IMG/VR virus record: IMGVR_UViG_3300043570_000882
Coordinates: 1 to 31,668 of that record
Origin: a virus
Length of the DNA: 31,668 nucleotides
Reading direction: 5' to 3' (one strand)
The translations under genes were made by a program, and so were the position numbers. The number at the start of each line of letters is the position of its first letter. Positions within the stretch are counted from its first letter, which is position 1. The notes beneath the pieces are model-generated. The model was not told the DNA's origin and did not search any database. It worked only from the letters and a program-made list of their open reading frames with translations. Below, piece by piece: positions 127-31,668 of the stretch.

Positions 127-1410
127 CTATAACTTTCCGTAATCCAAACCCCAATTTGCTTTAATAGGAAACCCACCATCCTCAATGATTTCTTTCAATC
201 CTCTAATCAATTCTTTATCAACATCAGTAGGAACATCAAAAAGAAACGAATCATATGTATATAAACAAAATCGAATTTCACTTCCCCCAATCCAATCCAA
301 TATCCTTCTCATCTTATCCACATTCATTTCAGTTTCTACCGCTTGAAGTAGATAGTTGAATACTTTTTGTGGGTTAGGTTGTTCAATCCAGCTCAACGGA
401 ATCTCTCTATGTGGTGTTTGTAAGTAACCTCGCTTTTGTGTTTCAATCCATAATCCATCAATATAATCAGCCACAGCATTGAAGTAAGGTATCTTACGGA
501 AATCATCATCAATACCACCATAAAGTAATTGGAACGTAATTCCTTTCGATTCATCCACACTACATCCATATTGTTCGGCTAACCACTCATGCACCGAAGT
601 TGTTGGGAGTTCGAAGTTTACTAACTTACCAATCAATCGAGGGTGATATGCGTTATAATCCATTTGTAGGAATATTCCATCCGATACAAAACATTCTCTA
701 CTACCATCGGTTTTGTTTAGGGCGGCATAGTTCACACCACCATGTCTATTTGAAGGTCTACCGGTCACCGTAAATGGATTGTACTCCGTAAACACTAAAT
801 TATCGGGTGAAAGCTGTTTGGAAGCTTGAGGCCATCTATCAATAAATTTTTCCCCAACGACACGGATTCCCATTTGTTCAATTCGGGCTAAGGTTGGTAT
901 AAAAATATCGTTATACCAATTATAAGTTTTAGATTTCTGATTGATTGATTTACCAAGTTCGTTTTCAATTGCTTCACACAATTTGAGAATGGGAATGGAT
1001 TGAATGATGTCCTCTTTGTAACCCTTATGAATAAAGGGAGCCACTAAGTTTTGTATTGGTTGAGAATAGTCTATTGTTTTACCATGCTTTAAGAAGTAAG
1101 CGGTGTCAACATCATTCAAGCCTTCCCGTACATCCGTAAAAGATTGTAGTAGCTTTTTCTTTTGGAATACCCATTTTTCTCCGGCAGTATTCAACACACT
1201 AGCTATTTGCTCATTAGAGAGTGATATAGCGTCTGTATGTTGTTGTGGTAGTATATACTTGTCCGATTGGGTTCTAACGAATATAAACGATATATGAGTG
1301 TTATTAGGGTGCTTGTCATTATCTACCCACATAGGATACCAAACGGAAGCTTCGGTCTCCAGCTTTACACTCAATTCATTCAATTCATCAATAGACTCAA
1401 CAATTATCAT
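127..1410 (-). CDS. Short family A DNA polymerase-like protein
   Basis: A 427-residue protein resembling the polymerase half of DNA polymerase I (numbering from the ATG at 1408-1410). Visible landmarks in order are: a TGRPSNRHGGVNYAAL stretch near 216-231, like the Pol I TGRLSS..NLQNIP region; motif A, LQMDYNAYHPRL, with Asp251; motif B, KGITFQLLYGG, from Lys289; a FNYLLQAVETEM helix near 351-362, like the Pol I IQGxAAD helix; and motif C, YTYDSFLFD, with Asp387. Both metal-binding aspartates are present, but motif C reads YDS instead of HDE and the arginine four residues before the motif B lysine is missing. Residues 1-160 look like a degenerate exonuclease domain without a clear DxE. A TTG nine bases upstream is in frame but lies inside the -7 box, so I prefer the ATG. 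Replication or repair polymerase is likely; full activity is unproven. Confidence 0.75.
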   Translation of the reverse strand: MIIVESIDELNELSVKLETEASVWYPMWVDNDKHPNNTHISFIFVRTQSDKYILPQQHTDAISLSNEQIASVLNTAGEKWVFQKKKLLQSFTDVREGLNDVDTAYFLKHGKTIDYSQPIQNLVAPFIHKGYKEDIIQSIPILKLCEAIENELGKSINQKSKTYNWYNDIFIPTLARIEQMGIRVVGEKFIDRWPQASKQLSPDNLVFTEYNPFTVTGRPSNRHGGVNYAALNKTDGSRECFVSDGIFLQMDYNAYHPRLIGKLVNFELPTTSVHEWLAEQYGCSVDESKGITFQLLYGGIDDDFRKIPYFNAVADYIDGLWIETQKRGYLQTPHREIPLSWIEQPNPQKVFNYLLQAVETEMNVDKMRRILDWIGGSEIRFCLYTYDSFLFDVPTDVDKELIRGLKEIIEDGGFPIKANWGLDYGKL

Positions 1411-1416
1411 AGGATA

Positions 1417-1448
1417 CAAAGATACAAAAAAAATCCCAAACTACCAAA
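1417..1448 (-). promoter_or_regulatory. Bacteroidetes-type promoter for the polymerase gene
   Basis: On the minus strand TTTG (1448-1445) is followed by a 20-base spacer and TATCTTTG (1424-1417), an exact match to the Bacteroidetes TAnnTTTG -7 box. The box ends only six bases before the ATG at 1410, so the transcript should have almost no leader. The extended upstream box AATTTGGTAGTTTG is shared base for base with the promoter before the tmRNA. Confidence 0.65.
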
Positions 1449-1468
1449 TTAATGTAGAATGGGATTTT
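1426..1468 (-). terminator. Intrinsic terminator of the tmRNA gene
   Basis: Starting at the last base of the tmRNA CCA end, the minus strand forms a 9-bp stem AAAATCCCA / TGGGATTTT (1468-1460 with 1438-1430) around a 21-base loop, and the T-run continues to 1426. The loop is long, which weakens the call. The loop and the 3' arm are also the upstream part of the polymerase promoter, so stop and restart signals are nested. Confidence 0.5.
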
Positions 1469-1853
1469 GGTGGAGATGAGGGGAATCGAACCCCTGTCTT
1501 ACAAAGTAATCATAATACCAGCATATCACACGTTTAGGTAAAGTTTAATCTTATTCACTTTCCAAAATAATTGGGGCCGTATGGTTAGTACAGCTTTCCA
1601 CCAACCTATCAGTTTTTAAGAGCCGATAGGTAGAGCTCCGTTTTGTTCACTTCTATTTAAATGTTCCACGAGTGATGCGGAATGAACTAAGCAGCGTATG
1701 CGTACTCAGAAGCCCCAATGAATTCCATCATAGAATCAAAGGTCATAGTTGACATTTCGTCAGTTGTTTGTTTGCGCAGATTTAAAGAGCTCTAGCACAT
1801 CTCTCTACGTGTGGTACTACCATTCTCATTGCAATCAAGTCCATGGCATCCCC
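1468..1853 (-). ncRNA. ssrA: Transfer-messenger RNA (tmRNA), phage-encoded
   Basis: This 386-nt RNA carries both tRNA-like ends of a tmRNA. The 5' end GGGGATG pairs with CATCTCC next to an encoded ACCA tail as a 7-bp acceptor stem. The third pair is G-U, the alanine identity element expected of tmRNA. The T arm is AGGGG / CCCCT around TTCGATT (near 1479-1495). The 5' side has the short D-like segment typical of tmRNA, then a probable first pseudoknot (CACA/TGTG and AGAG/CTCT, ending near nt 68), an A-rich single-stranded stretch, and a reading frame ending EYAYAA then TAG. tmRNA with SmpB frees stalled ribosomes and tags the nascent chain for proteolysis. It has its own promoter (1864-1895) and a terminator. 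I see no smpB gene here, so it presumably uses host SmpB and alanyl-tRNA synthetase. Confidence 0.93.
1687..1767 (-). other. Probable tmRNA tag reading frame
   Basis: In the mRNA-like part of the tmRNA one frame ends SEYAYAA followed by TAG (stop at 1687-1689). This resembles the hydrophobic Ala-Ala end of known tags such as YALAA. Reading back from the stop, the frame is open for at least 26 codons to ACA at 1765-1767, in the A-rich region where the resume codon is expected. A shorter option starts at the GGG at 1714-1716 (GASEYAYAA), which resembles Gly-initial Bacteroidetes tags but lies about 48 nt too far from the first pseudoknot. A third option, in another frame, starts at GCA (1773-1775), 10 nt after the pseudoknot, and reads ANKQLTKCQL then TGA. 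Confidence 0.55.
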
Positions 1854-1863
1854 ATATAATATG

Positions 1864-1895
1864 TAAATATACGAAATTAATTTCAAACTACCAAA
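1864..1895 (-). promoter_or_regulatory. Promoter of the tmRNA gene
   Basis: On the minus strand TTTG (1895-1892), a 20-base spacer and TATATTTA (1871-1864) lie upstream of the tmRNA 5' end at 1853. The spacer length equals that of the polymerase promoter, and both share the 14-base AATTTGGTAGTTTG. The -7 box differs from TAnnTTTG only in its last base. The upstream box overlaps the stop codon of the preceding tail gene. Confidence 0.6.
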
Positions 1896-5378: not shown

Positions 5379-7322
5379 TTAGTTTTTACCAATTTGTGGA
5401 GTAAACAAAAATCCTTTCGTACCATAATCATATTTCAAGTTTCCGTTCAACGCAACCTTCTTAATGTTATTTATATAGCTGGTTATGTCTATATATTGTT
5501 GATTGATTTGTTCACGCTGTTTAAAATCCTTAGCGTTAGGAGCTCTCCCTGCTTTAGTTGTTCTAGTAAAAAAGCTTGGTTTAAAATTTTCTTCCCATTC
5601 CTTTAGTTGATTAAGTAAAGCTTTTTGCTGGTCAACAAGAGCACCAGTTGCTTTGTTTGCTGTAACTTCTGCTTCAGTCAATAGAGCATCTTTAGGAATA
5701 TTTCGTCTAATATACTTTAAATCATTAGAAATCATATCACTTCCAGGATTTTTATTTATATATGCAGGTACGAATAAAGTATGACTTACGGCAGCAAGTG
5801 GTTTTTCTTCTTTTTTTACCTCTTTTTTAGCAGGAAGTTTACCCGTTTTCCACCAAGTTTTTAAAGCTTTAGCAGATTGGGTTATATTATTATCGATAAT
5901 TTGTGCATTAATATATGCGTAATTAAGTAAATCATCAACTGGTTCTTTTATAGCTATACCTGTATTTATTGCGAAGTTACCAACATTTAATACTGCATTG
6001 GCCGTTGATAGTGCAGTATTTAGTGCAAGTACTCCAGGTAAAGCTTTAAAAACCATACCATATTCTCCCATTTTCCAAAAATTTGCTGTCATCGAATTTG
6101 CATTAATTATAGTATATCGATTCACTCTAATTTGGTCATCAATTTCAGCAGCCCCACTTTCTAGCGTTTTGGATACATACCCATATACATTATATCCCTT
6201 TTTGTGAACTTCATCTTGTCTTTTTCTAAAATTTTTTTCAGGTGAGTAACTATCGGATGCTTGCTCATATTCTTCAGCATTCTTAAGTAATTTCATAAAT
6301 GTGCCGCCATATTGTTTTCTATAGTCTTTGCTAGATTGACCATCATAAGCACTCATAGCTGCTGCATTAATAACATCAAAATTGTTTTCAAATGTCTTTG
6401 CTTTTTCTAAATACACATCATTACTTATTCCAAATTTTCCTGCAAAAAAGCTATATGGAGAGGCTATTTCTTTAAGTCCCTCATATATTCCAACATTACC
6501 AATCACTTTATCAGGATTTAGCGTAAACTTAATTGTTTGTAATTTACTACCTCTTGCTTTATACCTTGTAAGACTAGAGGATTTATCTATATAATTCCTA
6601 AGCGTAAAGATAGACCTTTGTGTTGTAGCACCAAGTATATTTAAATCTTTTACAGCTGTAAACAAGTCATGACTTGTATGCGATATAACAGACCCCACTT
6701 TACCAGGAAGGATACCTTTTAAACGATACAAAGTGAGGATATTAACATTCTGCCCAGTTGCAATTAAAAATGATGATAAAATATCCTGTCCTTTATAATT
6801 ATAATACGCTGCGGTTGAAAAAATTCTAGGAACTAATGTAGCTGCTTTAACTTGATTTGCCGTCATTGATATTCCCTTACCAAATCGTACTATCTTACCT
6901 CCATTTCCACCGGTAACTACTACATCAAACATACTAAACAAAGCTTTACCGGCCGCCAATCCTGCTCCCACATGAGATGGGGCCCCTAAAAAAGATGCAG
7001 CCTCATTATAACTAGTTCCTACTGGCGCCCATATACCCTCACCATATGTATTTTTAATTTCAATTCCACCACCATCGTTTACCGGTACTAATGCATTCCA
7101 TATTTTTGCGCTTTTTGCATCTTCTTCGGATAATCCTACACCAGATGTTGGCGTTACATTGTATATTCTACTATCAGCGGCACGATTAGAAATGGTATTT
7201 GATAAAGCGTTTTTTGTTAATTTAATCCCCTGCGAAGGGAGTGTATTCAATGATTTTTTAAAATCATCTGTTATAGTCCCAATTTTTATTGGAGTAGCTA
7301 ATCCAGTTAATATACTTCCCAT
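5379..7322 (-). CDS. Large baseplate-region protein, function unknown
   Basis: A 647-residue protein without a family I recognise. The N-terminal third is Gly/Ala-rich (GTSYNEAASFLGAPSHVGAG and nearby). Around residues 400-470 there is a long moderately hydrophobic helical stretch (MVFKALPGVLALNTALSTAN), followed by a Lys/Glu-rich linker (KKEVKKEEK) near 500 and a helical C-terminal region with a likely coiled coil (VDQQKALLNQLKEWEENF). It has no signal peptide. It sits between the tube-initiator-like and LysM genes with gaps of only 11-12 bases, so it is almost certainly co-transcribed baseplate machinery. Possibilities include a wedge component or a protein held inside the tail that interacts with membranes. 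Confidence 0.55.
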   Translation of the reverse strand: MGSILTGLATPIKIGTITDDFKKSLNTLPSQGIKLTKNALSNTISNRAADSRIYNVTPTSGVGLSEEDAKSAKIWNALVPVNDGGGIEIKNTYGEGIWAPVGTSYNEAASFLGAPSHVGAGLAAGKALFSMFDVVVTGGNGGKIVRFGKGISMTANQVKAATLVPRIFSTAAYYNYKGQDILSSFLIATGQNVNILTLYRLKGILPGKVGSVISHTSHDLFTAVKDLNILGATTQRSIFTLRNYIDKSSSLTRYKARGSKLQTIKFTLNPDKVIGNVGIYEGLKEIASPYSFFAGKFGISNDVYLEKAKTFENNFDVINAAAMSAYDGQSSKDYRKQYGGTFMKLLKNAEEYEQASDSYSPEKNFRKRQDEVHKKGYNVYGYVSKTLESGAAEIDDQIRVNRYTIINANSMTANFWKMGEYGMVFKALPGVLALNTALSTANAVLNVGNFAINTGIAIKEPVDDLLNYAYINAQIIDNNITQSAKALKTWWKTGKLPAKKEVKKEEKPLAAVSHTLFVPAYINKNPGSDMISNDLKYIRRNIPKDALLTEAEVTANKATGALVDQQKALLNQLKEWEENFKPSFFTRTTKAGRAPNAKDFKQREQINQQYIDITSYINNIKKVALNGNLKYDYGTKGFLFTPQIGKN

Positions 7323-16994: not shown

Positions 16995-19900
16995 TTATCC
17001 TTTAATATTAAATATTAAATTATTTAAAATTTCTTTTAATTCTTTAATTTCTTCTGATTGTTTTTTTACAATTTCATTTTGCTCCTTAAATGCTTCAATA
17101 AATAATCCTGCAAGATTACCATATGCAACCGCATATTCATCTAAATCTTTCACATATGATACAACTTCCGGAACAATTTCATTTACTTCTTGTGCAATTA
17201 CACCCAATTGTCTTTTATCAGCACCACCATCAGGAATCGTATCATTTTCATTATAAATTTTAGTATAGTAAATACCTCTTAATTGTAAAACTTTATCCAA
17301 AGCGTTATCAACTGTAACAATATCCTTTTTCTTTCTTATATCCGAATAAGCTACGATATTGCCTGTTGCGTAAACACCACCATTACAATATATTGCATAC
17401 CCTCCGGCGGTTGAGGATGTACCCATTCCAGTACAATTATTTCCCAATGAATGATAAAACACCCATCTACCATATCCCTCTATATAACATCCACCATTAC
17501 CACTTCCATCAAACATATAGTAAGGTGAGTTACCAGTACCAATACTTAAACCATACCACCCATTTCTATTACCATCAATTATCCATGAACCATATGACCT
17601 GTTACTTGGGTAGAAGTGTGCACCATTTATTCCAGAATATATTCCATGATGTCCAGTAAGATTTTGCCATGTATGCCAAAATGAATAGTTAGATGAACCA
17701 CTCAATTGAATTAGAATACCACTCATATCATAATCAGAATATAATCTAACTCCTTCATATGAACCAGCGTTTGCTCCAAACTTAAGACCTGTATGATATG
17801 CAATTCTTAAATCCGGATAAGGATAACCCCAACCACCACCTTCTTGGAAGATAGAGTATGCGTTTGTACCTTGTCCAGAGTTACCACCAACTCCAGTGAA
17901 ATCTAAACGAGCTATTCTACAATAATCATTGAATTCACCAGAACTCAATTGAGAATATCCAGTTGGGTTACAATAATATGATGTATTAACTCCTTTATAA
18001 AAGGCGTTAGCCATTACATTTTTATTACCACCACCAGGTCCAATTCTTACTTCACCACCATCATAGTAGTTTAATTCCAATGGGTCACCACCTCTACCAT
18101 TTACAGTATCAAAATATCCGTTTCTACCAATAACGCCATATGAACTATCACCTTGCCAATATAAATTATAATAATATACTGCGTTTAAAGATGATGTTCC
18201 ATCAGGATCTAAATAATATCCACCATTGTTTGAATCTCTAAATGATGTTGCCCATAATGCTGATGTACTTGAATTATTATCATACATTGCAATCTTATAC
18301 CAACCACTAGGGCTATTCCAGCTATATCTCCACCATAAGTTTGCATTCACACCACCAATCATCTGCCATCCGTATGCGTTACTACCATTACTCCAGTGGA
18401 ATGTTTGAATACCAACGTGATGTGATGTATCACCCGGTCTATTTTGTGCACCAGTAGAACCCCAGCTATCAATAAATCCAGAACCCCATCCTAACATTTC
18501 ATTGAAAGTATAAGAACCCCATCCCATATTACCAGTCCAATAAACTTGGTCTCCTGTTATGTAAGGTCTCCAGTAATTATATCTACCGGTTATACCAGTT
18601 TTAGCTTGCGTAGTTTGATTCCATCCATTAATATTTGAATCTCTATCTCCAGCAGGATTTAAATAGTATCCAGTACTTTCATTATCACGATAATAAGTTG
18701 CATCTACATATTGTCTAAACCAAGCTCTTGATGAAATTGCTGCGAATGTTGTACCATAGTTCATTATCAACATACCATGGTCATTCAAAAATCCAGCTTG
18801 TCCTCCCGCGTTTGGATGTGACCAAGCTATACCATACATATTGTTGGTAGCTGAGCCATCATTTGATATTTTATATGCATCACCCATCGCATATACCATT
18901 TGATATCTAGTTGATGTATAAACCCCAACTATACCAGACCCATAGTTATTATCAAGATACAAATAGTTTCCAGAATAAATGTTGTATCCGTTAAGCCTTC
19001 CATTACTATACCAGTTTGTTTCACCATGAAATCTAATGTTCTGTCCACTATAATAGTTTAAGTACATTTGCTTACTAGCACTTGCCGAGTCCAAATGTAA
19101 ATTACCATCCGTTGAAATTACTTGTGCTTGATAACTACCAAGTTTATTACTTGCAGCACCTACATATAGATAAGCTCCCCAAGATGCATTTGGTCCATAT
19201 AGTGTACCAGAGTTATCTCCATTTTGTACAGCCTCTCTAACATATGAATAGTTTCCAGATACAGCAAATGTTTTAATTGTTGAACCATTACTACTTTGAA
19301 TTCTAAATCCAGTACCAGAGTATGCTCTAATTTCTTCCCAATCATCATCTGCGTTCCATAAGAAGTGATTTGTATCTCCGTTAGTTCTTAGATATAATCT
19401 TTGGTCATTCAAACCATAAGAACCAGTCATATTAATACCACCACTAATAGGAATTGCATAAGAACCATAGTTTCCAGCATGCAACATTGCTCTCCATCCA
19501 CTTTGCCAGTTTGTAGTACCATACCATCCGTATCTATGAAGAATTTCACCCTGATAGAAGTAATATTGGTCATGTTGATGTCCACCTAATCCATAGTATT
19601 CAATTAATGTACCATATGAAGATGGTGCTCCACTTTGAGTGTAACTATCCCACATTCTAAATGACATTGATTGAGTACCACTACCATTACCATGAGCTCC
19701 CCAACTATAATCCCATTCTCTATAAGGGAATGTTACTTGGTTTACTACTATTCTATTACTATTCCATAAATAAGTTGTATCATCTGAAACATAATATAAT
19801 GGTGAACGGAAATTACCATTTACCGAATCTGGTGTTATCCATACAGTTTGGTCAGTCATTCTAATTGTTGTAAAATTAGAGTTACCTTCTGTACCAGTAT

Positions 19901-22900
19901 TCAAATCTATTCTTCTTGATGAACCTCTATTTGAGATAATCATTTTACCAGTACCATCATGATTTAATGAGAAACCTTGAGCTGTATAAGCTGCATAAGT
20001 TCCAAATGATTGAGATGAGCCTCCCAAACCAATATATGCTCTATGTGTACCATTTTCAGTAAAGTCTGCTAAACCATATGTAGTTGAATCATTTAAATTT
20101 AATCTAACATTACCAGTAGTAAGATTATTAGTTAAAGTAGTTGTGCCAGCTGTAGTTAATGAATTTATATTAGATGTACCTGCCGGGTCTGAATAGTATC
20201 CAGTATTATCTCTATCATAGAATCTATATGCGTATAAATCTCCAGCTAAAGTAAGAGTACCACCATTAGATAATGCCATTATTTGAGTTGCCCCAGCATT
20301 ATACCAATCATATGCACCATTACCAAAGTTTCTTAAACGAGATGTACCAGCATCTTGTATAAATCCAGTATAATTAGAAGCATCTCCAATATTTAAACCA
20401 GTACTCCAACCAACACCAGCTGCACCACCTGCCCAAATACTTACTCTACCAGAAGAAATTGCAGCTGTGCCACTTAATACAGTTTGTCCACCATATACAT
20501 AGAAAGGAACTGATGGTGAACCAGGAGAACCAACGGATACACCTGCTGTAAAGTTATTATATCCATTAAGGTATAACATGTTAGTATTCCAACCGCTATA
20601 TCTCCCTATTGCTTGCCATCCAGTTAATTGTACAGTCGTATCACCACCACCTGCTACGTTTAATGTAGGTCCAGCAAAATATCCATTACCACTTTCATTT
20701 ACTGAAAATAATTCGTTTGATGCTTTTCTTGCATTGTTTCCAACTATAAATTTACTATCGGTTTGGTTATTATTAGAATCTATACTTACACGTACATCAC
20801 CAGCACCAGCCATATAAAGTACATTACCAGATGAATTATCTTGTACAAGAATCACATCATATGTATTATCTCTATACAAACCAGCGGAAGTATCACTTAA
20901 ATAAAATGCCCCTCCATTTCCACCAGAGTTTGCAATTACCTGATTGAATACAACGTTATCGGTTGTACGAACATTTTGGTTCATATTATAAGCATAAGGG
21001 TCACTTACACTATCCAATAGATATTTCCAACCAGTCCAAGAGTTACCACTATTAGTACTATAATCACCAAAACGAACTCCTAAACGAGTACCACCATAAA
21101 CAGAACTATATGGTGTATATAATTGTAACGAACCGCCACCACCAGAATAAGTTCTCATCATCATTACAGACCCATAATTTGGAAATCCTTCTGTAGATGA
21201 AACGAATGCATTTGTTATGCCTTGTCCAAATGCTTGTGGTAAAGATGATGCACTCCAACCATAATTAGCTAATGCATTTAATAGGTTAGCCGATGTTGCT
21301 ACACCACTTAAGTTTGATGTTACGTTTACAAATGTTGGTGAATCGGTTGTTCTAAGATTTTGATTCATTAAGTGAACTTCCGTAGCTCCCTGTCCAGTAT
21401 CAACCGTAGCAAACGTTACTGCATCAGTTGTACGAACATTTTGATTCATTGCGTACAATTCATTTGCACCTTGTCCAGTATTAACGGTTGCAAATGTTAC
21501 ACCATCAGTAGTTCTTACGTTTTGGTCCATTAAATAAACTTCGGTTGCTCCTTGTCCTGTGTTTAATGTACCACTAAGAACTACGTTACCACTTACGTTT
21601 ACGTTATCATCAAATGACCATCTATCATTACCCTCATCCCAAATAAATTGTTTTGTTGCTGCATTACCTCTCTTAACTTCTATACCAGCGTTTTCGGTTG
21701 GTGTGGTTGATGCTCCAATATCTGCGTTTAATGTAATGATATTATCACCTACATTTAAAGTTGTTGTATTAATATATGTTGTTGTACCACTTACAGTAAG
21801 GTCACCACTAATTGTAGCGTTACCAGTTACTGCTAATGTAGTTCCATCAAAAGTTAAATTTGATTCAACAGTTCCGTTTGGCGCAGTTCCATTTAAAGTT
21901 ATTACACCATTATTTGTTCCACCAGTTAATGATAATAATCCAGATGAACCAGATGTACCACGTGTTCCTGATGTGCCAGAAGTTCCTGATGTGCCAGAAG
22001 TTCCTGATGTACCGCTTGTGCCAGAAGTTCCCGAACTTCCACTTACACCAGATGTTCCTGATGTGCCACTACTTCCACTTGTTCCCGATGTGCCACTTGT
22101 ACCAGATGTTCCTGATGTGCCACTTGTACCAGATGTTCCTGATGTACCTCTTGTGCCAGATGTTCCTGATGTGCCAGACGTTCCCGATGTTCCAGAAGTT
22201 CCGGATGAGCCACTAATACCAGATGTTCCCGAAGTTCCGCTTGTGCCAGAAGTTCCCGATGAACCACTAACTCCAGAAGTTCCTGATGTACCAGATGTAC
22301 CATTTGAACCTTGTGCCCCAGACGTACCACTTGTGCCAGACGTTCCTGATGTACCACTTGAACCTTGTGCCCCCGATGTACCACTTGTGCCAGAAGTTCC
22401 TGATGTACCTCTACTTCCGCTTGTGCCAGAAGTTCCTGATGTACCAGACGTTCCTGATGTACCATTTGAGCCGGATGAACCTTGTATTCCAGAAGTTCCT
22501 GATGTTCCAGAAGTTCCTGATGTTCCACTACTTCCACTTGTGCCAGACGTTCCTGATGTTCCCGATGAACCACCTGTGCCACTTGCTCCACTAGTACCAC
22601 TACTTCCAGAAGTTCCTGATGTACCCCTACTACCTGATGTGCCGCTTGTACCGCTTGTGCCGCTTGTGCCACTTGTACCACTTGTACCACCAGCGCCACC
22701 AGCTCCACTTATACCGGATGTTCCAGAAGTTCCTGATGTACCAGAAGTTCCTGATGTGCCGCTTGTACCACCACTTCCAGATGTACCACCACTTCCTGCA
22801 GTACCAGAACCTCCACCTGCTCCAGTTAGACCAGATGTTCCCGATGTACCACTTGTGCCAGATGTACCGCTTGTGCCAGAAGTACCTCCACTTCCACCAG

Positions 22901-24008
22901 TTCCAGTTGAACCAGTTGGTCCTATTAATCCCGATGTACCAGACGTTCCCGATGAGCCACTACTACCACTACTACCACTCACTCCACTACTTCCACTAGT
23001 ACCAGATGACCCAGATGTACCAGATGACCCAGAAGTTCCCGATGAACCAGATGAACCATTTTGTCCTGATGTTCCTGATGTGCCAGAAGTTCCTGATGTG
23101 CCAGATGAACCGCTTGTACCAGAAGTTCCTGATGACCCAGAAGTTCCACGACTTCCTGATGTGCCAGAAGTTCCTGATGTGCCAGAAGTTCCTGATGTGC
23201 CAGATGTTCCTGATGTACCAGACGTTCCCGATGTACCAGAAGTTCCTGATGTGCCCCTTGTGCCGGATGTTCCTGATGTACCACTTGTGCCAGATGTTCC
23301 TGATGTGCCGGATGTTCCTGATGTGCCAGAAGTTCCTGATGTGCCAGAAGTTCCTGATGTGCCGCTTGTACCAGATGTACCAGATGATGCTGCAGATGTT
23401 TTTATACCTATTTTACCACTTACAGTATTATAAACTAAAACTTCTTGAGTTGTTAAATCTTGTTGTAGTGAACCAGTTCCAAATGTTAATGAACCAGTTA
23501 TACCAACACTACCAGTAAATTCTTGCTTATCATTTTGTGCATCACCAAATTTGTTACTTCCACTTGCGTAGATTATTGATGATGAAATATATGTTGCGAA
23601 TAATTCAGTTGTATTTATTTTTCCAGTTACATTTAAGTTACCAGCAATATTTGTATTTGTGTTTACTTGTAATCCTAAATTTGGAGATATAATTGCTGTT
23701 GCAGAGCCTGATTTTAATCTGTCTAAATCCCCAATTGCACCAGCATTAATATTAAATAATCCACCTCCATCACCTCTAAATAATGATGCTGTTATTGAAC
23801 CACTAATTTGTGTGTTTCCTCTTATTTGCAAAGTAGAACCACCACCAGTTCCTATAATATTTGTCTGAACTGCGGATGCTGTAAAATTTCCTACAACACT
23901 TACAGATTCCGATGAAGCATTTATAATAGAGCTACCACTTACAAAAAGAGATATACTATTTACACTATTTAAATTTAAGCCATTTGGGTCTTTACCATTA
24001 AACTGCAT
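16995..24008 (-). CDS. Giant tail fibre with collagen-like repeats and S74 chaperone
   Basis: A 2337-residue fibre. Residues 1-204 are beta-rich with one GDGGGLFNI...ISPNLGLQVNT module. About 204-689 are Gly-x-x repeats, mostly GTS. About 690-900 include TNNGVITLNG..ESNLTFDGT and three tandem 26-residue copies of TGQGAxExxxMxQNxRTTD. The long shaft to ~2220 has several FxDxNxxGYYxDPxG repeats (such as RDNTGYYSDPAGTSNINSL) and Trp/Tyr/Gly-rich segments that may bind sugars. The last 116 residues are a peptidase S74 intramolecular chaperone: SDIRKKKD begins at Ser2222, with Lys2227 five residues on, matching the Ser-Lys dyad of endosialidase tails, then a coiled coil (EQNEIVKKQSEEIKELKEIL). The chaperone aids trimerisation and then cuts itself off, presumably before Ser2222. 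A long side or tail fibre that recognises the host is the likely role. Confidence 0.9.
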   Translation of the reverse strand: MQFNGKDPNGLNLNSVNSISLFVSGSSIINASSESVSVVGNFTASAVQTNIIGTGGGSTLQIRGNTQISGSITASLFRGDGGGLFNINAGAIGDLDRLKSGSATAIISPNLGLQVNTNTNIAGNLNVTGKINTTELFATYISSSIIYASGSNKFGDAQNDKQEFTGSVGITGSLTFGTGSLQQDLTTQEVLVYNTVSGKIGIKTSAASSGTSGTSGTSGTSGTSGTSGTSGTSGTSGTSGTSGTSGTSGTRGTSGTSGTSGTSGTSGTSGTSGTSGTSGTSGTSGSRGTSGSSGTSGTSGSSGTSGTSGTSGTSGQNGSSGSSGTSGSSGTSGSSGTSGSSGVSGSSGSSGSSGTSGTSGLIGPTGSTGTGGSGGTSGTSGTSGTSGTSGTSGLTGAGGGSGTAGSGGTSGSGGTSGTSGTSGTSGTSGTSGISGAGGAGGTSGTSGTSGTSGTSGTSGSRGTSGTSGSSGTSGASGTGGSSGTSGTSGTSGSSGTSGTSGTSGTSGIQGSSGSNGTSGTSGTSGTSGTSGSRGTSGTSGTSGTSGAQGSSGTSGTSGTSGTSGAQGSNGTSGTSGTSGVSGSSGTSGTSGTSGTSGISGSSGTSGTSGTSGTSGTSGTRGTSGTSGTSGTSGTSGTSGTSGTSGSSGTSGTSGVSGSSGTSGTSGTSGTSGTSGTSGTSGTRGTSGSSGLLSLTGGTNNGVITLNGTAPNGTVESNLTFDGTTLAVTGNATISGDLTVSGTTTYINTTTLNVGDNIITLNADIGASTTPTENAGIEVKRGNAATKQFIWDEGNDRWSFDDNVNVSGNVVLSGTLNTGQGATEVYLMDQNVRTTDGVTFATVNTGQGANELYAMNQNVRTTDAVTFATVDTGQGATEVHLMNQNLRTTDSPTFVNVTSNLSGVATSANLLNALANYGWSASSLPQAFGQGITNAFVSSTEGFPNYGSVMMMRTYSGGGGSLQLYTPYSSVYGGTRLGVRFGDYSTNSGNSWTGWKYLLDSVSDPYAYNMNQNVRTTDNVVFNQVIANSGGNGGAFYLSDTSAGLYRDNTYDVILVQDNSSGNVLYMAGAGDVRVSIDSNNNQTDSKFIVGNNARKASNELFSVNESGNGYFAGPTLNVAGGGDTTVQLTGWQAIGRYSGWNTNMLYLNGYNNFTAGVSVGSPGSPSVPFYVYGGQTVLSGTAAISSGRVSIWAGGAAGVGWSTGLNIGDASNYTGFIQDAGTSRLRNFGNGAYDWYNAGATQIMALSNGGTLTLAGDLYAYRFYDRDNTGYYSDPAGTSNINSLTTAGTTTLTNNLTTGNVRLNLNDSTTYGLADFTENGTHRAYIGLGGSSQSFGTYAAYTAQGFSLNHDGTGKMIISNRGSSRRIDLNTGTEGNSNFTTIRMTDQTVWITPDSVNGNFRSPLYYVSDDTTYLWNSNRIVVNQVTFPYREWDYSWGAHGNGSGTQSMSFRMWDSYTQSGAPSSYGTLIEYYGLGGHQHDQYYFYQGEILHRYGWYGTTNWQSGWRAMLHAGNYGSYAIPISGGINMTGSYGLNDQRLYLRTNGDTNHFLWNADDDWEEIRAYSGTGFRIQSSNGSTIKTFAVSGNYSYVREAVQNGDNSGTLYGPNASWGAYLYVGAASNKLGSYQAQVISTDGNLHLDSASASKQMYLNYYSGQNIRFHGETNWYSNGRLNGYNIYSGNYLYLDNNYGSGIVGVYTSTRYQMVYAMGDAYKISNDGSATNNMYGIAWSHPNAGGQAGFLNDHGMLIMNYGTTFAAISSRAWFRQYVDATYYRDNESTGYYLNPAGDRDSNINGWNQTTQAKTGITGRYNYWRPYITGDQVYWTGNMGWGSYTFNEMLGWGSGFIDSWGSTGAQNRPGDTSHHVGIQTFHWSNGSNAYGWQMIGGVNANLWWRYSWNSPSGWYKIAMYDNNSSTSALWATSFRDSNNGGYYLDPDGTSSLNAVYYYNLYWQGDSSYGVIGRNGYFDTVNGRGGDPLELNYYDGGEVRIGPGGGNKNVMANAFYKGVNTSYYCNPTGYSQLSSGEFNDYCRIARLDFTGVGGNSGQGTNAYSIFQEGGGWGYPYPDLRIAYHTGLKFGANAGSYEGVRLYSDYDMSGILIQLSGSSNYSFWHTWQNLTGHHGIYSGINGAHFYPSNRSYGSWIIDGNRNGWYGLSIGTGNSPYYMFDGSGNGGCYIEGYGRWVFYHSLGNNCTGMGTSSTAGGYAIYCNGGVYATGNIVAYSDIRKKKDIVTVDNALDKVLQLRGIYYTKIYNENDTIPDGGADKRQLGVIAQEVNEIVPEVVSYVKDLDEYAVAYGNLAGLFIEAFKEQNEIVKKQSEEIKELKEILNNLIFNIKG
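16998..17345 (-). other. Peptidase S74 domain at the fibre C-terminus
   Basis: This 116-codon stretch encodes the self-cleaving chaperone of the fibre. The Ser codon at 17343-17345 starts SDIRKKKD; LGVIAQEVNEIVPEVV is the conserved middle; and a heptad coiled coil closes the chain. Cleavage before the serine is expected from the family, not shown here. Confidence 0.85.
21943..23393 (-). repeat. Gly-Thr-Ser collagen-like repeat array in the S74 fibre
   Basis: About 480 codons of Gly-x-x triplets, overwhelmingly GTS with some GSS, GVS, GIS, GAQ, GSR and GTR. Proline occurs at one point only (GLIGPTGSTG). The DNA is a degenerate 9-base repeat with local exact 18-base tandem units, for example two copies at 23162-23199. 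Because Gly, Thr and Ser codons vary, most copies are not identical. Occasional charged triplets (GSRG, GTRG) and hydrophobic ones (GISGAGGAG) interrupt it. Confidence 0.9.
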
Positions 24009-26059: not shown

Positions 26060-29000
26060 TTAAGCCATATTTTTACCAACCACAAATCCATAGAATGTAG
26101 TTCCTCCATCATAAGTATAGAAAACTAAAACATCTATACCAGAAGTTGTAAGGATTGGAGCACTTCCACCAGCCCAATCAACATTCACAGGCCATGTAAT
26201 TACAAATGCTTGTGCATTTGCAGTTATCAATGTAAATCCAAATGCTTTACCTGCAGGTGCGTTACTAAATGTTATAGTTGCGTTACCATTAAATGTTCTT
26301 TTGAAGTTATTAGCGGTTGACATATCTATTGTAGCAGACCCACCAGTTCCTAAATCATTATAAATTTCTCTATATGATGTTGCTTCCAAATATGTACTAG
26401 CATCCATTCCACCTGTTAGTGTGATGTTACCAGTTTGGTTAGTATCACCAATTAATGTTAATATACTTCCATCAAATGTAAAGTTGCTTTCCGCAGTTGC
26501 TCCAACAGGTGCATTGTTATATGTTAATATACCATCATTTGTTGTTCCTACTATACTAAGACCAGATCCCGATGTACCACCACTACCAGAAGTACCAGAT
26601 GAAAAACCTGGAGCGTTTGTTCCAGATGAACCACTACTTCCCGTATTTCCTGATGTTCCAGAAGTTACACCATAGAAAGATGTACCAGACGAACCACTTG
26701 AACCAGCTGCTCCAGTAGAACCAATAGCACCAGACGTACCCGATGTTCCAGATGAACCAAAGAATGTACCATTTACACCAGATGAACCCGATGTTCCAGA
26801 TGACCCAGATGTTCCAGAAGAACCATATCCAGATGTTCCTGATGTGCCACTACTTCCTGAAGTTCCAGATGAACCAAACATTGTACCATTCACACCGGAT
26901 GTTCCCGTTGAACCAGAAGTTCCTGAAGACCCGGCTGTACCTGTTGAGCCGCTTGTACCAGAAGTTCCTGATGTTCCAGAAGTTCCCGATGAACCAAACA
27001 TTGTACCATTAACTCCCGATGTACCAGATGTTCCATTAGAACCACTTATACCAGATGTTCCATTAGAACCACTTATACCAGACGTTCCTGATGAGCCAGA
27101 CGTTCCTGATGAACCAAACATAGTACCATTAACTCCCGATGTACCGGCCGAACCAGTTGTACCGCTTGTGCCAGAAGTTCCACCAGTACCCGTTGTGCCA
27201 GAAGTTCCCGATGTACCAGAAGTTCCTGATGTTCCGGAAGAACCAAACATTGTACCATTTACACCAGACGTTCCTGTTGAACCAGAAGAGCCTGCAGTTC
27301 CCGATGTACCATTTGTTGCATCTAATCCAGACGTTCCAGATGACCCAGATGTCCCACTACTTCCAAAGAATGTACCATCTAATCCAGAAGTTCCTGATGT
27401 GCCAGATGAACCAGACGAACCAGATGTACCAGCTCCAGATGTTCCCGATGAACCAGATGTGCCACTACTTCCAAAGAATGTTCCATCTAAACCGCTTGTT
27501 CCAGATGAACCCGATGACCCAGACGTTCCAGATGTACCAGCTCCAGATGTTCCACTACTTCCAGCTGAACCATTTGTACCACTACTTCCAAAGAATGTAC
27601 CATCTAATCCAGAAGTTCCTGATGAGCCAGATGAACCAGACGTTCCACTTGAACCAGCACCATCAGTACCACTTGTACCAGTTATACCACTAGTCCCACT
27701 ACTTCCAAAGAATGTACCATCTAATCCAGAAGTTCCTGATGTGCCAGATGAACCAGACGTTCCTGAAGACCCAGATGAACCAGACGAACCTCCACTACCA
27801 TTTGTACCACTAGTCCCACTACTTCCAAAGAATGTACCATCTAATCCAGATGTGCCAGACGTTCCGGATGAACCTCCACTGCCGCTTGAACCACCACTTC
27901 CACTTGAACCGCTTGTACCACTACTTCCAGATGTTCCTGATGAACCTCCACTGCCACTACTACCACTACTTCCAAAATAAGTACCATCTAATCCAGATGT
28001 TCCACTTGTACCAGATGTACCGCTTGAGCCACTTGTGCCAGATGTACCGCTTGTGCCAGATGTTCCACTACTTCCAAAATAAGTACCATCTAATCCAGAT
28101 GTTCCAGATGACCCAGATGTTCCTGATGTGCCAAATGTTCCCGATGTACCATCCGTACCAGATGTGCCAGATGAACCGGATGTTCCGCTAGTGCCAGAAG
28201 TTCCATTTGTACCTGTACTACCACTCGTACCACTACTTCCTGATGTACCAGATGTACCATCAGAACCAGATGTGCCCGATGTACCAGAAGTTCCCGATGT
28301 ACCAGCTGATCCCGATGAACCTCTTTCACCAGAAGTTCCCGATGTGCCAGATGTACCATCAGTACCACTTATTCCCGATGTGCCAGATGTTCCATCCGTA
28401 CCACTCGTACCACTACTTCCAGAAGTGCCGCTTGTGCCAGATGTACCATCAGTACCACTTATTCCGCTTGTGCCAGAAGAACCAGAAGTTCCTGACGTAC
28501 CAGATGAGCCATCAACCCCAGACGTTCCTGATGACCCAGATGTACCAGAAGTTCCCGATGAACCCGTTGAACCAGAAGTTCCTGAAGACCCAGACGAACC
28601 AGAAGTTCCTGAAGACCCAGATGTTCCGGATGACCCAGATGAACCTGTTGTACCACTTGAGCCGCTTGTACCAGAAGTTCCCGATGAACCAGATGTACCA
28701 TCAGAACCAGACGTTCCTGAAGACCCAGAAGTTCCCGATGACCCAGACGAACCAGCTGAGCCAGTTGTTCCCGATGTACCAGATGATCCCGATGAACCTC
28801 CACTTCCCGATGTGCCAGATGTTCCCGATGTACCACTTGAACCAGCTTCTCCTTTAGAACCAGACGTACCAGACGTTCCCGATGTACCAGCAGTTCCTGA
28901 TGTGCCAGAAGTTCCAGATGAACCGTTTGAACCAGAAGTACCCGATGTGCCAGATGTACCACCCGTACCACCTGTACCAGTTGTTCCCGCTGTTCCACCA

Positions 29001-31668
29001 CTGCCACTAGTACCACTTGAGCCACCAGTACCAGTTGAACCAGAAGTTCCACTACTACCGCTTGTACCACTACTTCCGCTAGAACCACTACTACCAGACG
29101 TTCCTGAAGACCCAGAAGTTCCTGAAGACCCAGAAGTTCCGGATGAGCCAGATGTACCACTACTTCCAGAAGTTCCCGATGAACCGGTTGAACCAGATGT
29201 TCCTGAAGACCCAGATGAACCAGAAGTTCCTGATGAACCAGAAGACCCAGAAGTTCCCGATGTGCCACTTGTTCCAGAAGTTCCTGATGTGCCAGATGTT
29301 CCAGATGAACCACTACTACCAGAAGACCCAGATGTTCCCGAAGACCCAGATGAACCAGAAGTTCCCGATGAGCCAGAAGTTCCCGAAGACCCAGATGAAC
29401 CAGACGTTCCTGAAGACCCAGAAGTTCCTGAAGACCCAGAAGTTCCGGATGAGCCAGATGTACCACTACTTCCAGATGAACCCGTAGAACCAGAAGAACC
29501 AGAAGTTCCTGATGAACCAGCTGAACCGGAAGAACCACTACTACCAGATGAACCTGACGTTCCTGATGAGCCGGCAGTTCCAGATGAACCTGCTGTGCCA
29601 GATGAACCGGCTGAACCATTTGTACCAGATGAACCACCAGTACCTGTTGTACCTGATGAACCTACTGCTGCTGCTATATTTCTTCTTTCTAATTTTTTAG
29701 TTAAACTATTCCATACAACAACTTCTTCGGATGAGCCAGTTGGTAATGAGTTTATTAACAAATTACTATTTGCTATAATACTACCACTAACACCCAAGCT
29801 ACCACTAATTGTAAGTGATGCGTTTATTGTTTGGTCTGTGTTAATTTGTAAGAATGATGATGTATCAGATGATGGAGTATTTAATGCAAATAATGCATAA
29901 GATGCGGTGAATGCTAACGATGCAGTTCCAACTAACATTGAAGAAGTTTGTGAACTAAGTAAATCACCAAAACCAGCACCACCACCACCTAATATTCTTA
30001 CTAATACTCCATCTGAACCAGAAGATATTACATCAACACCAGAACCAGTAAAATGAATTTTTCCTACTTGTGCTTTTACTAATGAACTTGTTTGATATAT
30101 AAATAGTTCAGTACCACCACCACCGGCTCCTGCATTTAATGCATATGATGCGGTTAATGCGTAAGAAGAACTTACTGCACTAAACACAGCCATTGAAGAT
30201 GTTTGTGAGTTTCTTACTAAGTTTTGAATATCATTTAATGCTGATAATGATGCTGAATCAAATCCAGTAACATTTCTTGCTGTTTCAGCAACGAATGCAT
30301 ATGATGATGAAAGTACCGTACCAATAACTCTACCACCTTCTATTGTACCACTAATCAAAGAACCACCACTACCAATTACAGCATGTCCACTTGTCAATCC
30401 ACTAAATACAATTTGAATTGTATCATCATTTATTGATTTTATTGTACCGGGTAGGATTTGGTCTTCTGAACCTGTAGCGTAAACCTGTACCATTGGATAT
30501 CTAATTCCTAAATTGTGTACAATTGTTAAACTACTTACATTGTTAAAAGATACCGTTTCAGTTAATGAAGTTTCAGGTTGAGGAATATAATGTCCTCTAG
30601 TTGGGTCATATCTTAAAATATCATAATCAATACTTGCAGTTGGTCCATTTCCTTCATATGCGTATGTACCTCTTAAACCTCCACTTACTATTGGAGAATA
30701 TATTTGAGTACTTCCGGTTATTGTATATGCTCTTAAATTATCACCAACATAAAGATTACCCCAAATACTTGCAGATGTATTAACTACAAATCCGTTATCA
30801 GGGGAAATTGATGCTGTAAATGAACCACTTTTTAATATAAATGTTTCAAATGATAAGTTAGCAATATTAATATTATATAACCCACTACCATCTCCTCTAA
30901 AGGTTGAACCACTTCCAACCAATGATACATCACCACCAGTTACAAACAATCCACCACTAACTAATAAAGATGATGATATGTTTACTTTTGTATTTACTAC
31001 TAAACCCAAATTAGGAGAAATTACAGCTTCAACAGACCCAGATTTAATTCTATCTAATTGTAAATCTTCCAATGCATTTGCAGGGATATTAAATAATCCA
31101 CCACCATCACCTATATAAAGAGATGCTGTAATTGGTACATTTACATTCAATTCATCAGGACTTACTATTGCTCTAGCAGAACCAGATTGAATTCTGTCTA
31201 ATTGAAGGTCTTGTAATGCTGATGCGGGGATATTAAATAGTCCACCACCATCTCCATCATAACGAGATGCCGATAGAGTACCACTTACTATTGCTGCACC
31301 ACTCACTATTAAACTCAAAGATGAAGATGGTACAACTCTATCAATTGTCGTATAAGTGTTAATTACGAGTCCCGTATTAGGTGCTATGGATGCTGTTACA
31401 GAACCAGATGCTATTCTTGGTGCAGCTGTTGCAGCTACATTTGTTAAATTAGAACCATCTCCTATAAAAGTAAATGCTTCTATACTACCACTTACTTTTA
31501 TAGAACCAGTAAATTGAGAACCTATTTGAGAGCCAGTTGCAGGTGTTTCTACTCTAAATCCAAAGTTAGGAGATACAGAAGCTGTGACACTTCCACTTGA
31601 GATTTTTGGAGATGCCGCCGCAACAACATTTGTAATTTGAGAACCATCTCCAATGAAATAATTTGCAG
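26060..31668 (-). CDS. Giant collagen-like tail fibre, 5' end beyond the window
   Basis: At least 1,868 residues are visible. A TTG-initiated frame from 31318 is only part of it: I translated 31319-31668 and found the same frame open to the edge (first full codon at 31664-31666), with two further repeat modules (FIGDGSQITN and FIGDGSNLTN). The N-terminal part carries five GDGxxLxNx...ISPNxGLxVNT modules. A beta segment VSSLTIVHNLGIRYPMVQVY follows, of a kind common in tail fibres, then SSYALTASYALNA stretches. About 1,030 residues of GTS/GSS repeats come next, with 12 (L/V)(D/N)GTxFG inserts. The C-terminal ~165 residues contain TNDGILTYNN..ESNFTFDGS and end YGFVVGKNMA. No S74 domain is present, so it must trimerise by another route. 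Confidence 0.9.
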   Translation of the reverse strand, partial: ANYFIGDGSQITNVVAAASPKISSGSVTASVSPNFGFRVETPATGSQIGSQFTGSIKVSGSIEAFTFIGDGSNLTNVAATAAPRIASGSVTASIAPNTGLVINTYTTIDRVVPSSSLSLIVSGAAIVSGTLSASRYDGDGGGLFNIPASALQDLQLDRIQSGSARAIVSPDELNVNVPITASLYIGDGGGLFNIPANALEDLQLDRIKSGSVEAVISPNLGLVVNTKVNISSSLLVSGGLFVTGGDVSLVGSGSTFRGDGSGLYNINIANLSFETFILKSGSFTASISPDNGFVVNTSASIWGNLYVGDNLRAYTITGSTQIYSPIVSGGLRGTYAYEGNGPTASIDYDILRYDPTRGHYIPQPETSLTETVSFNNVSSLTIVHNLGIRYPMVQVYATGSEDQILPGTIKSINDDTIQIVFSGLTSGHAVIGSGGSLISGTIEGGRVIGTVLSSSYAFVAETARNVTGFDSASLSALNDIQNLVRNSQTSSMAVFSAVSSSYALTASYALNAGAGGGGTELFIYQTSSLVKAQVGKIHFTGSGVDVISSGSDGVLVRILGGGGAGFGDLLSSQTSSMLVGTASLAFTASYALFALNTPSSDTSSFLQINTDQTINASLTISGSLGVSGSIIANSNLLINSLPTGSSEEVVVWNSLTKKLERRNIAAAVGSSGTTGTGGSSGTNGSAGSSGTAGSSGTAGSSGTSGSSGSSGSSGSAGSSGTSGSSGSTGSSGSSGTSGSSGTSGSSGTSGSSGTSGSSGSSGTSGSSGTSGSSGSSGTSGSSGSSGSSGTSGTSGTSGTSGTSGTSGSSGSSGTSGSSGSSGTSGSTGSSGTSGSSGTSGSSGTSGSSGTSGSSGTSGSSGSSGSSGTSGSSGTSGSTGTGGSSGTSGSGGTAGTTGTGGTGGTSGTSGTSGSNGSSGTSGTSGTAGTSGTSGTSGSKGEAGSSGTSGTSGTSGSGGSSGSSGTSGTTGSAGSSGSSGTSGSSGTSGSDGTSGSSGTSGTSGSSGTTGSSGSSGTSGSSGTSGSSGSSGTSGSTGSSGTSGTSGSSGTSGVDGSSGTSGTSGSSGTSGISGTDGTSGTSGTSGSSGTSGTDGTSGTSGISGTDGTSGTSGTSGERGSSGSAGTSGTSGTSGTSGSDGTSGTSGSSGTSGSTGTNGTSGTSGTSGSSGTSGTDGTSGTFGTSGTSGSSGTSGLDGTYFGSSGTSGTSGTSGTSGSSGTSGTSGTSGLDGTYFGSSGSSGSGGSSGTSGSSGTSGSSGSGGSSGSGGSSGTSGTSGLDGTFFGSSGTSGTNGSGGSSGSSGSSGTSGSSGTSGTSGLDGTFFGSSGTSGITGTSGTDGAGSSGTSGSSGSSGTSGLDGTFFGSSGTNGSAGSSGTSGAGTSGTSGSSGSSGTSGLDGTFFGSSGTSGSSGTSGAGTSGSSGSSGTSGTSGLDGTFFGSSGTSGSSGTSGLDATNGTSGTAGSSGSTGTSGVNGTMFGSSGTSGTSGTSGTSGTTGTGGTSGTSGTTGSAGTSGVNGTMFGSSGTSGSSGTSGISGSNGTSGISGSNGTSGTSGVNGTMFGSSGTSGTSGTSGTSGSTGTAGSSGTSGSTGTSGVNGTMFGSSGTSGSSGTSGTSGYGSSGTSGSSGTSGSSGVNGTFFGSSGTSGTSGAIGSTGAAGSSGSSGTSFYGVTSGTSGNTGSSGSSGTNAPGFSSGTSGSGGTSGSGLSIVGTTNDGILTYNNAPVGATAESNFTFDGSILTLIGDTNQTGNITLTGGMDASTYLEATSYREIYNDLGTGGSATIDMSTANNFKRTFNGNATITFSNAPAGKAFGFTLITANAQAFVITWPVNVDWAGGSAPILTTSGIDVLVFYTYDGGTTFYGFVVGKNMA
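26750..28100 (-). repeat. Register-breaking inserts spaced about 117-120 bases apart
   Basis: Twelve copies of G(L/V)(D/N)GT(F/Y/M)FGSSG lie in the downstream part of the repeat. In transcription order there are two GLDGTYFG, five GLDGTFFG, four GVNGTMFG and one GVNGTFFG. Distances between successive copies are mostly 117-120 bases (39-40 codons), with extremes near 102 and 147. Each insert adds one residue, moving the glycine register. Confidence 0.8.
29093..29476 (-). repeat. Exact 78-base direct repeat within the fibre gene
   Basis: The sequence at 29093-29170 recurs without change at 29399-29476, 306 bases (102 codons) away. The surrounding repeat copies differ in codon choice, so this exact match suggests a recent duplication or gene conversion. 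Confidence 0.85.

Follow-up and report, generated by a model that had tools for sequence, protein, structure and literature searches.

The window, that is the whole stretch of 31,668 nucleotides of the virus record IMGVR_UViG_3300043570_000882 that we analysed, is a 31.7 kb virus contig, and its minus strand carries a complete one-piece tmRNA (ssrA) gene of 386 nt, read from its 5′ end at 1853 to 1468. The Rfam model RF00023, run with Infernal, matches the gene over its entire length (model positions 1-374 of 374) with 94.2 bits and an E value of 1e-35, where the cut-off is 47. The initial annotation had called a complete phage tmRNA at exactly these coordinates, without giving the strand, and had suggested such a covariance model as a check; the match above the cut-off bears the call out. 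The tRNA-like domain is also as it was described there, with a seven-pair acceptor stem including a G3-U pair, a T arm and an encoded CCA. ARAGORN called no tmRNA in the window, and we count this against the interpretation that we favour below. The features of the locus, in the direction of transcription, are as follows.

1864 to 1895, minus strand: promoter-like element, TTTGG (1895-1891), a 19-nt gap and TATATTTA (1871-1864); the motif is found in relatives
1468 to 1853, minus strand: tmRNA gene; full-length Rfam match, and 72 of 80 related contigs have a full-length homologue upstream of the polymerase-like gene
1847 to 1853, minus strand: 5′ strand of the acceptor stem, GGGGAUG (G3-U); Rfam alignment and sequence
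1773 to 1807, minus strand: pseudoknot 1 (PK1), stem S1 UAGAGA (1807-1802) with UCUUUA (1788-1783) and stem S2 UGUGC (1799-1795) with GCGCA (1777-1773); knot search sequence by sequence
1762 to 1772, minus strand: 11-nt linker AACAAACAACU from PK1 to the resume codon, with A at -4 and C at -5; alignment, knot search and sequence
1750 to 1762, minus strand: hairpin UGAC-GAAAU-GUCA where the tag frame begins; synonymous-codon controls, also present in the MFE fold
1690 to 1761, minus strand: tag reading frame, 24 codons from GAC, DEMSTMTFDSMMEFIGASEYAYAA; core motif in relatives, only open frame, pN/pS 0.44, ARAGORN in relatives
1687 to 1689, minus strand: tag stop codon UAG; sequence
1647 to 1682, minus strand: probable pseudoknot 2 (PK2), hairpin UUCCGC..GUGGAA (1682-1664) with the loop UCACU pairing with AGUGA (1651-1647); by eye from the alignment of relatives
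1479 to 1495, minus strand: T arm; Rfam alignment, fold and sequence
1472 to 1478, minus strand: 3′ strand of the acceptor stem, CAUCUCC, followed by A and the encoded CCA (1471-1468); Rfam alignment and sequence
1430 to 1468, minus strand: terminator-like hairpin AAAAUCCCA/UGGGAUUUU and then a U run, starting from the CCA end; read from the sequence
127 to 1419, minus strand: DNA polymerase-like protein of 430 aa, the downstream neighbour on the same strand; PHROG 17 DNA polymerase, E 2.6e-15

Relatives of the polymerase-like protein are annotated as DNA polymerase family A in Flavobacterium phage immuto, and the other genes of the window (tail sheath, tail tube, baseplate) are those of a contractile-tailed phage, with a sheath that is closer to a Microcystis phage (46%) than to a Flavobacterium phage (39%). 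The motif TTTG-N17..24-TAnnTTY, which we take to be the promoter form of Bacteroidota, is present in 67 of 126 distinct regions upstream of the tmRNAs, while base-shuffled versions give a mean of 2.9 and a maximum of 10 of 126. This promoter form, the phage relatives and a BT4734-like domain near one of the tmRNAs point to a Bacteroidota host. A TATCTTTG box at 1417-1424 (minus strand) is placed just before the polymerase-like gene and after the terminator-like hairpin of the tmRNA, and the two genes may therefore be transcribed separately. In the 40.9 kb scanned near the polymerase gene of Flavobacterium phage immuto, Microcystis phage Mel-JY01 and LR756508, no tmRNA reached the Rfam cut-off. 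Elsewhere in the window, two ORFs on the minus strand (16995-24008 and 26060-31318) encode 2337 and 1752 aa with long GSSGTSGTSG repeats, and are perhaps tail fibre or adhesin-like; the repeats are accompanied by long, probably spurious ORFs on the opposite strand.

The best 80 of 111 IMG/VR contigs encode the polymerase-like neighbour, and upstream of it a full-length tmRNA is present in 72 of them (45 distinct sequences including that of the window), an at least partial match in 76 and no match in four. Among 130 distinct full-length relatives, 121 have the GGGG start and CUCCA near the end. This linkage to the polymerase gene is one of two ways in which tmRNAs were collected blind to the tag; the other was a search for GGCCCC, a conserved stretch towards the 3′ end of the RNA, and the two sets share contigs. 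The GGCCCC set comprises 90 of 119 stretches among the matches listed, those already fetched by the tag pattern being left out. A DNA pattern for the commoner form of the tag core was found in at least 120 IMG/VR stretches, and 119 among the matches listed lie within such tmRNAs. In the 3.8 Mb of fetched loci, a core-like motif occurs 245 times inside tmRNAs and once outside, in L190, which is also the sole pattern match without a tmRNA. In 52 of the 64 tag-pattern loci that extend 1.5 kb or more downstream, no polymerase homologue is seen there, and the tmRNA therefore occurs in different contexts.

The predicted resume codon is GAC at 1761-1759 on the minus strand, about nt 93 of the tmRNA and 11 nt after PK1. 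Passages of PMC2481249 give the same distance for E. coli, with the linker AAAAAAUAGUC and A86 at -4 as the key base; the window has C and not U at -5, a point against our interpretation, though U85C is tolerated in E. coli according to the same passages. Since MAFFT, judged by eye, shifts the PK1 stems between types, they were searched sequence by sequence, with the gap to the resume codon fixed at 10-12 nt. An H-type PK1 was found in 78 of 89 distinct 5′ regions compared to 44 of 445 shuffles, the relatives using 26 different S1 and 31 different S2 pairings, and within the permitted 10-12 nt the most common gap was 11 nt (51 of 78). In 11 of the 89 regions no PK1 was found at the threshold used, which weighs on the other side. 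The Rfam alignment has an alternative S1 for the window, AGAG with CUCU at 1789-1786, and as read by eye it places the consensus resume codon GCA opposite the GAC of the window. A comparison of resume codons with related phages, also suggested in the initial annotation, shows A at -4, A at -3 and G at +1 to be invariant in 60 of 60 aligned relatives.

These results leave little room for resumption elsewhere. It had been claimed that the tag frame is offset from the codon expected by geometry, but GAC is 11 nt from PK1, at the position that the invariant bases mark. Another option named there, GCA at 1775-1773, was said to come exactly 10 nt after PK1; the knot had been misplaced, and GCA belongs to the 3′ strand of S2. 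The tag ANKQLTKCQL, which has no degron, would thus start within PK1. GCA is a common resume codon, and 31 of 163 relatives use it at the position that we assign to the resume codon, but the only frame that relatives keep open over the core is that of the long tag, and we regard a start at this GCA as having a negligible probability. Resumption at GGG (1716), with the short conventional tag GASEYAYAA, has in its favour that many tags of the bacterial sample described below are 9 aa long with an initial G. A covariance alignment had been expected to settle whether a normal tag of 8-12 aa starts there. The Rfam alignment instead sets the resume codon at GAC, GGG being codon 16 of the tag and 56 nt after PK1; some relatives have no G codon at that position (ESFDYAVAA type), and the frame upstream, which would then not be expected to be conserved, is conserved. 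This start, too, is extremely improbable, and we rejected both on the Rfam alignment, the invariant bases, the PK1 search and the coordinates.

From GAC the frame is open to the UAG at 1689-1687, and the tag is DEMSTMTFDSMMEFIGASEYAYAA, 24 aa with the core STMTFDSMMEFIGA. The frame ending in SEYAYAA-TAG that the initial annotation pointed out does exist as an ORF (1761-1687), and its option of a long, Met-rich tag is supported by the comparison with relatives, with the modification that the length of 24 is slightly below the 26-29 residues given. Tags are 23-26 aa long among 163 distinct tmRNA sequences with 69 distinct tags, a count that includes loci selected by the tag and a few resume codons that the script misplaced by 1-3 codons (tags with N, T, N*N or ILN in front). 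Counted by distinct tmRNA sequences, the exact tag of the window is the most frequent (17 of 163). Its own core variant is FDSMMEFIGA, and the commoner form of the core is S-T-M/W-T-F-E/D-D-x-M-A/S-F-V-G-A. When read in the frame anchored at the stop codon, the 45 distinct polymerase-linked tmRNAs have one kind of tag throughout, e.g. DVELSTWTFDDVMSFMGADLAVAA, DVELSTWNFEDAMAFVGAYDYAVAA and DEMSTMTFEDLMAFVGADYAVAA. ARAGORN called a tmRNA in 67 of the 80 relatives, and in 55 of these it gave the core tag (14 times the exact 24-aa tag of the window); for the other 12 it chose a reading at least about 110 nt further on and without an -AA end, which does not favour our interpretation. The end A-x-A-A is present in 25 of 25 distinct tags of the tag-blind sets and in 65 of 69 distinct tags overall, and the earlier suggestion of tagging without degradation would find no support in such ends. 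The exceptions (ATFA, AVSA, AVTA and VLMAA) count against our interpretation. VLMAA ends the tag of contig G123 (L161 1101-1478), the sole contig with both smpB and a tmRNA of the family.

The motif S[TSDE]x[TSN][FYW][DEG][DS]xM in the core is present in 73 of 73 scorable polymerase-linked tags and in 83 of 83 of the GGCCCC set; 49 loci without a tag were left out of the scoring (35 from a T-arm set, 7 GGCCCC, 4 tag-pattern and 3 polymerase-linked). In 28 distinct tag-blind segments the 14 core codons are free of stops in frame 0 throughout, while frame 1 is interrupted in 27 of the segments and frame 2 in 22. The pN/pS of the core is 0.44 in these segments, and variability at third codon positions is double that at the first and second. 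The core evolves as protein. Among 32 tag-blind representatives there are 496 pairs; in the 49 with tmRNA bodies less than 60% identical, the cores share 72% of their amino acids on average, and in those below 55% (n = 11) 75%, with no pairs below 50%. A value of about 80% for bodies below 50% identity is inflated because loci chosen by the tag are included, and the tag-blind figure is the one to use. The hydrophobic moment of the core was not above that of shuffles in four tags; in these it is not a clear amphipathic helix, a point against our interpretation.

The start of the tag seems to follow another rule. A hairpin with a score of at least 4 is possible in 49 of 52 distinct starts, compared to a mean of 29.2 and a maximum of 38 in 500 controls in which the same peptides were given resampled synonymous codons. 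The stem varies between relatives (GUAGA/UCUAC, AGAAGA/UCUUCU, AAGUUGA/UCAACUU, and UGAC/GUCA in the window), and paired changes of V..T to E..S at the tag start follow base pairing. Judging from the excess over the controls and from these matched changes, RNA structure seems to have shaped the first few residues, and the peptide the remainder of the tag. P5 appears to have been replaced in the window tmRNA. Both hairpin results could be taken to mean that the whole extra length is RNA structure, a start hairpin in place of a P5-like helix, with the peptide as a by-product in which the last residues alone matter. The hairpin, however, spans just about the first 6-8 codons, and the codon-position bias and pN/pS of the core are not accounted for, which makes this explanation improbable.

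Another possibility is a decaying or passenger tmRNA without function, and the CCA is indeed encoded in only 58 of 130 distinct full-length relatives. Hosts can add CCA, and the promoter-like element upstream, the many alternative PK1 pairings and the purifying selection on the tag all argue against decay, which we consider very improbable. The gene is, in our opinion, probably that of a functional phage tmRNA, charged with alanine, with a tag in two parts: a normal -AA degron and a conserved, putative docking peptide.

This kind of tag was looked for outside the phage group. A 29-base pattern that describes F/Y-D/E-D-x-M-A/S-F-V/I/M-G-A had one match in 84,980 prokaryote genomes (257 billion bases), within a transporter-like gene; the window's FDSMMEFIGA does not fit the pattern, and the scan covers the commoner core alone. 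The match (L205) was considered as a lead to the host and dismissed, as it sits in a 583-aa ORF that is a transporter by its look. When 50,697 phage records and 72,556 plasmids were searched with tblastn, neither the common form of the tag nor that of the window had a match. In the control, a consensus-like query would have recovered 69 of 69 tags from the phage collection and 68 of 69 from the plasmids, the type of the window only at the margin, and the window's own tag was searched too for that reason; this query could detect 43 and 31 of the 69 tags, and the exact tag at 5e-8 and 2e-7. In the phylum of a Bacteroidetes bacterium MAG, 106 of 109 tags called by ARAGORN are 9-10 aa (GENNYALAA, ADDYSYAMAA) and none has the phage core. 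This sample is 110 of 114 genomes above the cut-off, one of them without a call; the three calls at 14, 15 and 33 aa, like a single 10-aa one, look like misreadings. According to passages of PMC11915505, 10 aa is the most frequent tag length in a database of 97,179 tmRNA sequences, for which the virus input was RefSeq.

Other viral contigs have long tags of a different kind. A tag-blind scan for the T arm gave, among the matches listed, 72 ARAGORN tags, and 10 of these are 21-31 aa and lack the core, five of them with an -AA end; tag lengthening by phages may have happened several times. L334 has a tmRNA (6053-6451, plus strand) for which ARAGORN gives the 21-aa tag GNVLDKMETLGLVRESEVTVA; the product of an smpB nearby (6557-6970, minus strand) is 55% identical to the SmpB of contig G123. 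The tmRNAs of L313, L315, L332, L386 and L389 have other ARAGORN tags of 24-31 aa, that of L386 being confirmed by Rfam. Two further tmRNAs, L022 3388-3811 and L007 4520-4952, keep a normal T arm and have, downstream of the probable PK2, an inserted segment that contains a second, T-arm-like hairpin, GUGUG-AUUCGAA-CACAC.

Partner genes were found in some members and count on both sides. One of 14 large contigs (G123) has smpB, 4.8 kb from the tmRNA, and three have clpP, which favours our interpretation. No smpB was found in the other 13, and the clpP of G123 has an internal stop and is far from the tmRNA, which are points against it; most members appear to use the SmpB of the host, though the contigs may be incomplete. 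In five loci (L101, L132, L162, L247 and contig G132) clpP is 3.5-3.9 kb upstream of the tmRNA on the same strand, again in favour. Among the 99 family loci with at least 4.6 kb upstream, though, only four (L101, L132, L162 and L247) have it near the tmRNA, and this low share counts against our interpretation. A clpP at L539 3398-3901 belongs to this sub-group with phage clpP upstream of the tmRNA.

We hypothesize that the tmRNA, charged with alanine and aided by SmpB (probably that of the host in most members), would enter stalled ribosomes, which would resume at GAC (1761) and add alanine and DEMSTMTFDSMMEFIGASEYAYAA to the unfinished chain. The tag would then have three layers. Its first 6-8 codons would double as a short RNA hairpin, the conserved core could be a docking site for a protease or adaptor of host or phage, and the conventional C-terminal Y/L-A-x-A-A would be a ClpXP-type degron that leads to ClpXP-type degradation by the host. 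The phage would thereby rescue ribosomes during infection and route the products to a proteolysis of its choosing. More specifically, and as a tentative proposal that we consider possible rather than probable, a large group of probable Bacteroidota phages may re-address the output of ribosome rescue: the core would be read by a protease or adaptor outside the usual ClpXP route of the host, some members would bring their own ClpP or SmpB, and stalled chains, perhaps mostly those of the host, would be recycled under phage control.

The main rival to our interpretation keeps the same 24-aa tag and gives the core a non-proteolytic task; it would block or titrate a host protease or defence factor, or sort the tagged chains, and degradation would be secondary. 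That the core is conserved together with the degron, and that searches of prokaryote genomes, plasmids and the bacterial tag sample did not find the tag beyond viral contigs, would agree with such a task. The A-x-A-A ends of nearly all tags and the clpP linked to the tmRNA in a few members speak for proteolysis, and we regard the non-proteolytic core as rather unlikely.

The nearest precedent for an unusually long tag that is read by a different protease is that of Mesoplasma florum. Its ssrA tag is printed with 27 residues and is degraded by Lon according to passages of PMC9097571 and PMC8138137, and the latter connects the long tag with a lack of ClpXP. The tag described here differs in being viral and in mostly keeping the -AA end. 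Similarity of the core to the Lon-directed tag of Mesoplasma was tried and rejected, as alignment scores for eight tags were not above those of shuffles (fractions 0.06-0.69), and this is counted against our proposal. With E. coli ssrA, and with bacterial one-piece tmRNAs (RF00023) in general, the window tmRNA shares the tRNA-like domain with G3-U, T arm and CCA, the PK1, the 11-nt linker with A at -4 and the tag that ends in -AA. It differs from them in having a tag of 24 aa instead of 10, the commonest length in the passages of PMC11915505, a conserved internal core and a hairpin at the start of the tag. The tmRNAs of Bacteroidota are similar in the position of the resume codon, at about nt 90-103 in the first 29 called against 93 in the window, and in that many tags have an end of the -Y-A-x-A-A type; the difference is again in the short tags without the core.

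Phage tmRNAs as such are already known. Passages in the literature report them from the Bxz1 group, Bacillus phage G and DS6A (PMC4131195), from Melnitz and 402 phages (PMC9004378), from huge phages with both tmRNA and SmpB (PMC7162821) and in PMC12656738. The present case is similar in that a tmRNA is part of a phage genome, sometimes together with SmpB, whereas tag length and sequence are left undiscussed in those passages and the tag of the window is absent from the 50,697 phage records. No long conserved phage tag is described in the literature covered, in which subscription papers are scarcely represented.

An unusual and constant tag that more than 100 viral contigs conserve as protein, and that our searches of bacterial genomes and plasmids did not find, indicates that the tag itself, and not only ribosome rescue, is under selection. 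The core and its putative partner might also yield a new pair of degron and protease or adaptor for use in Bacteroidota.
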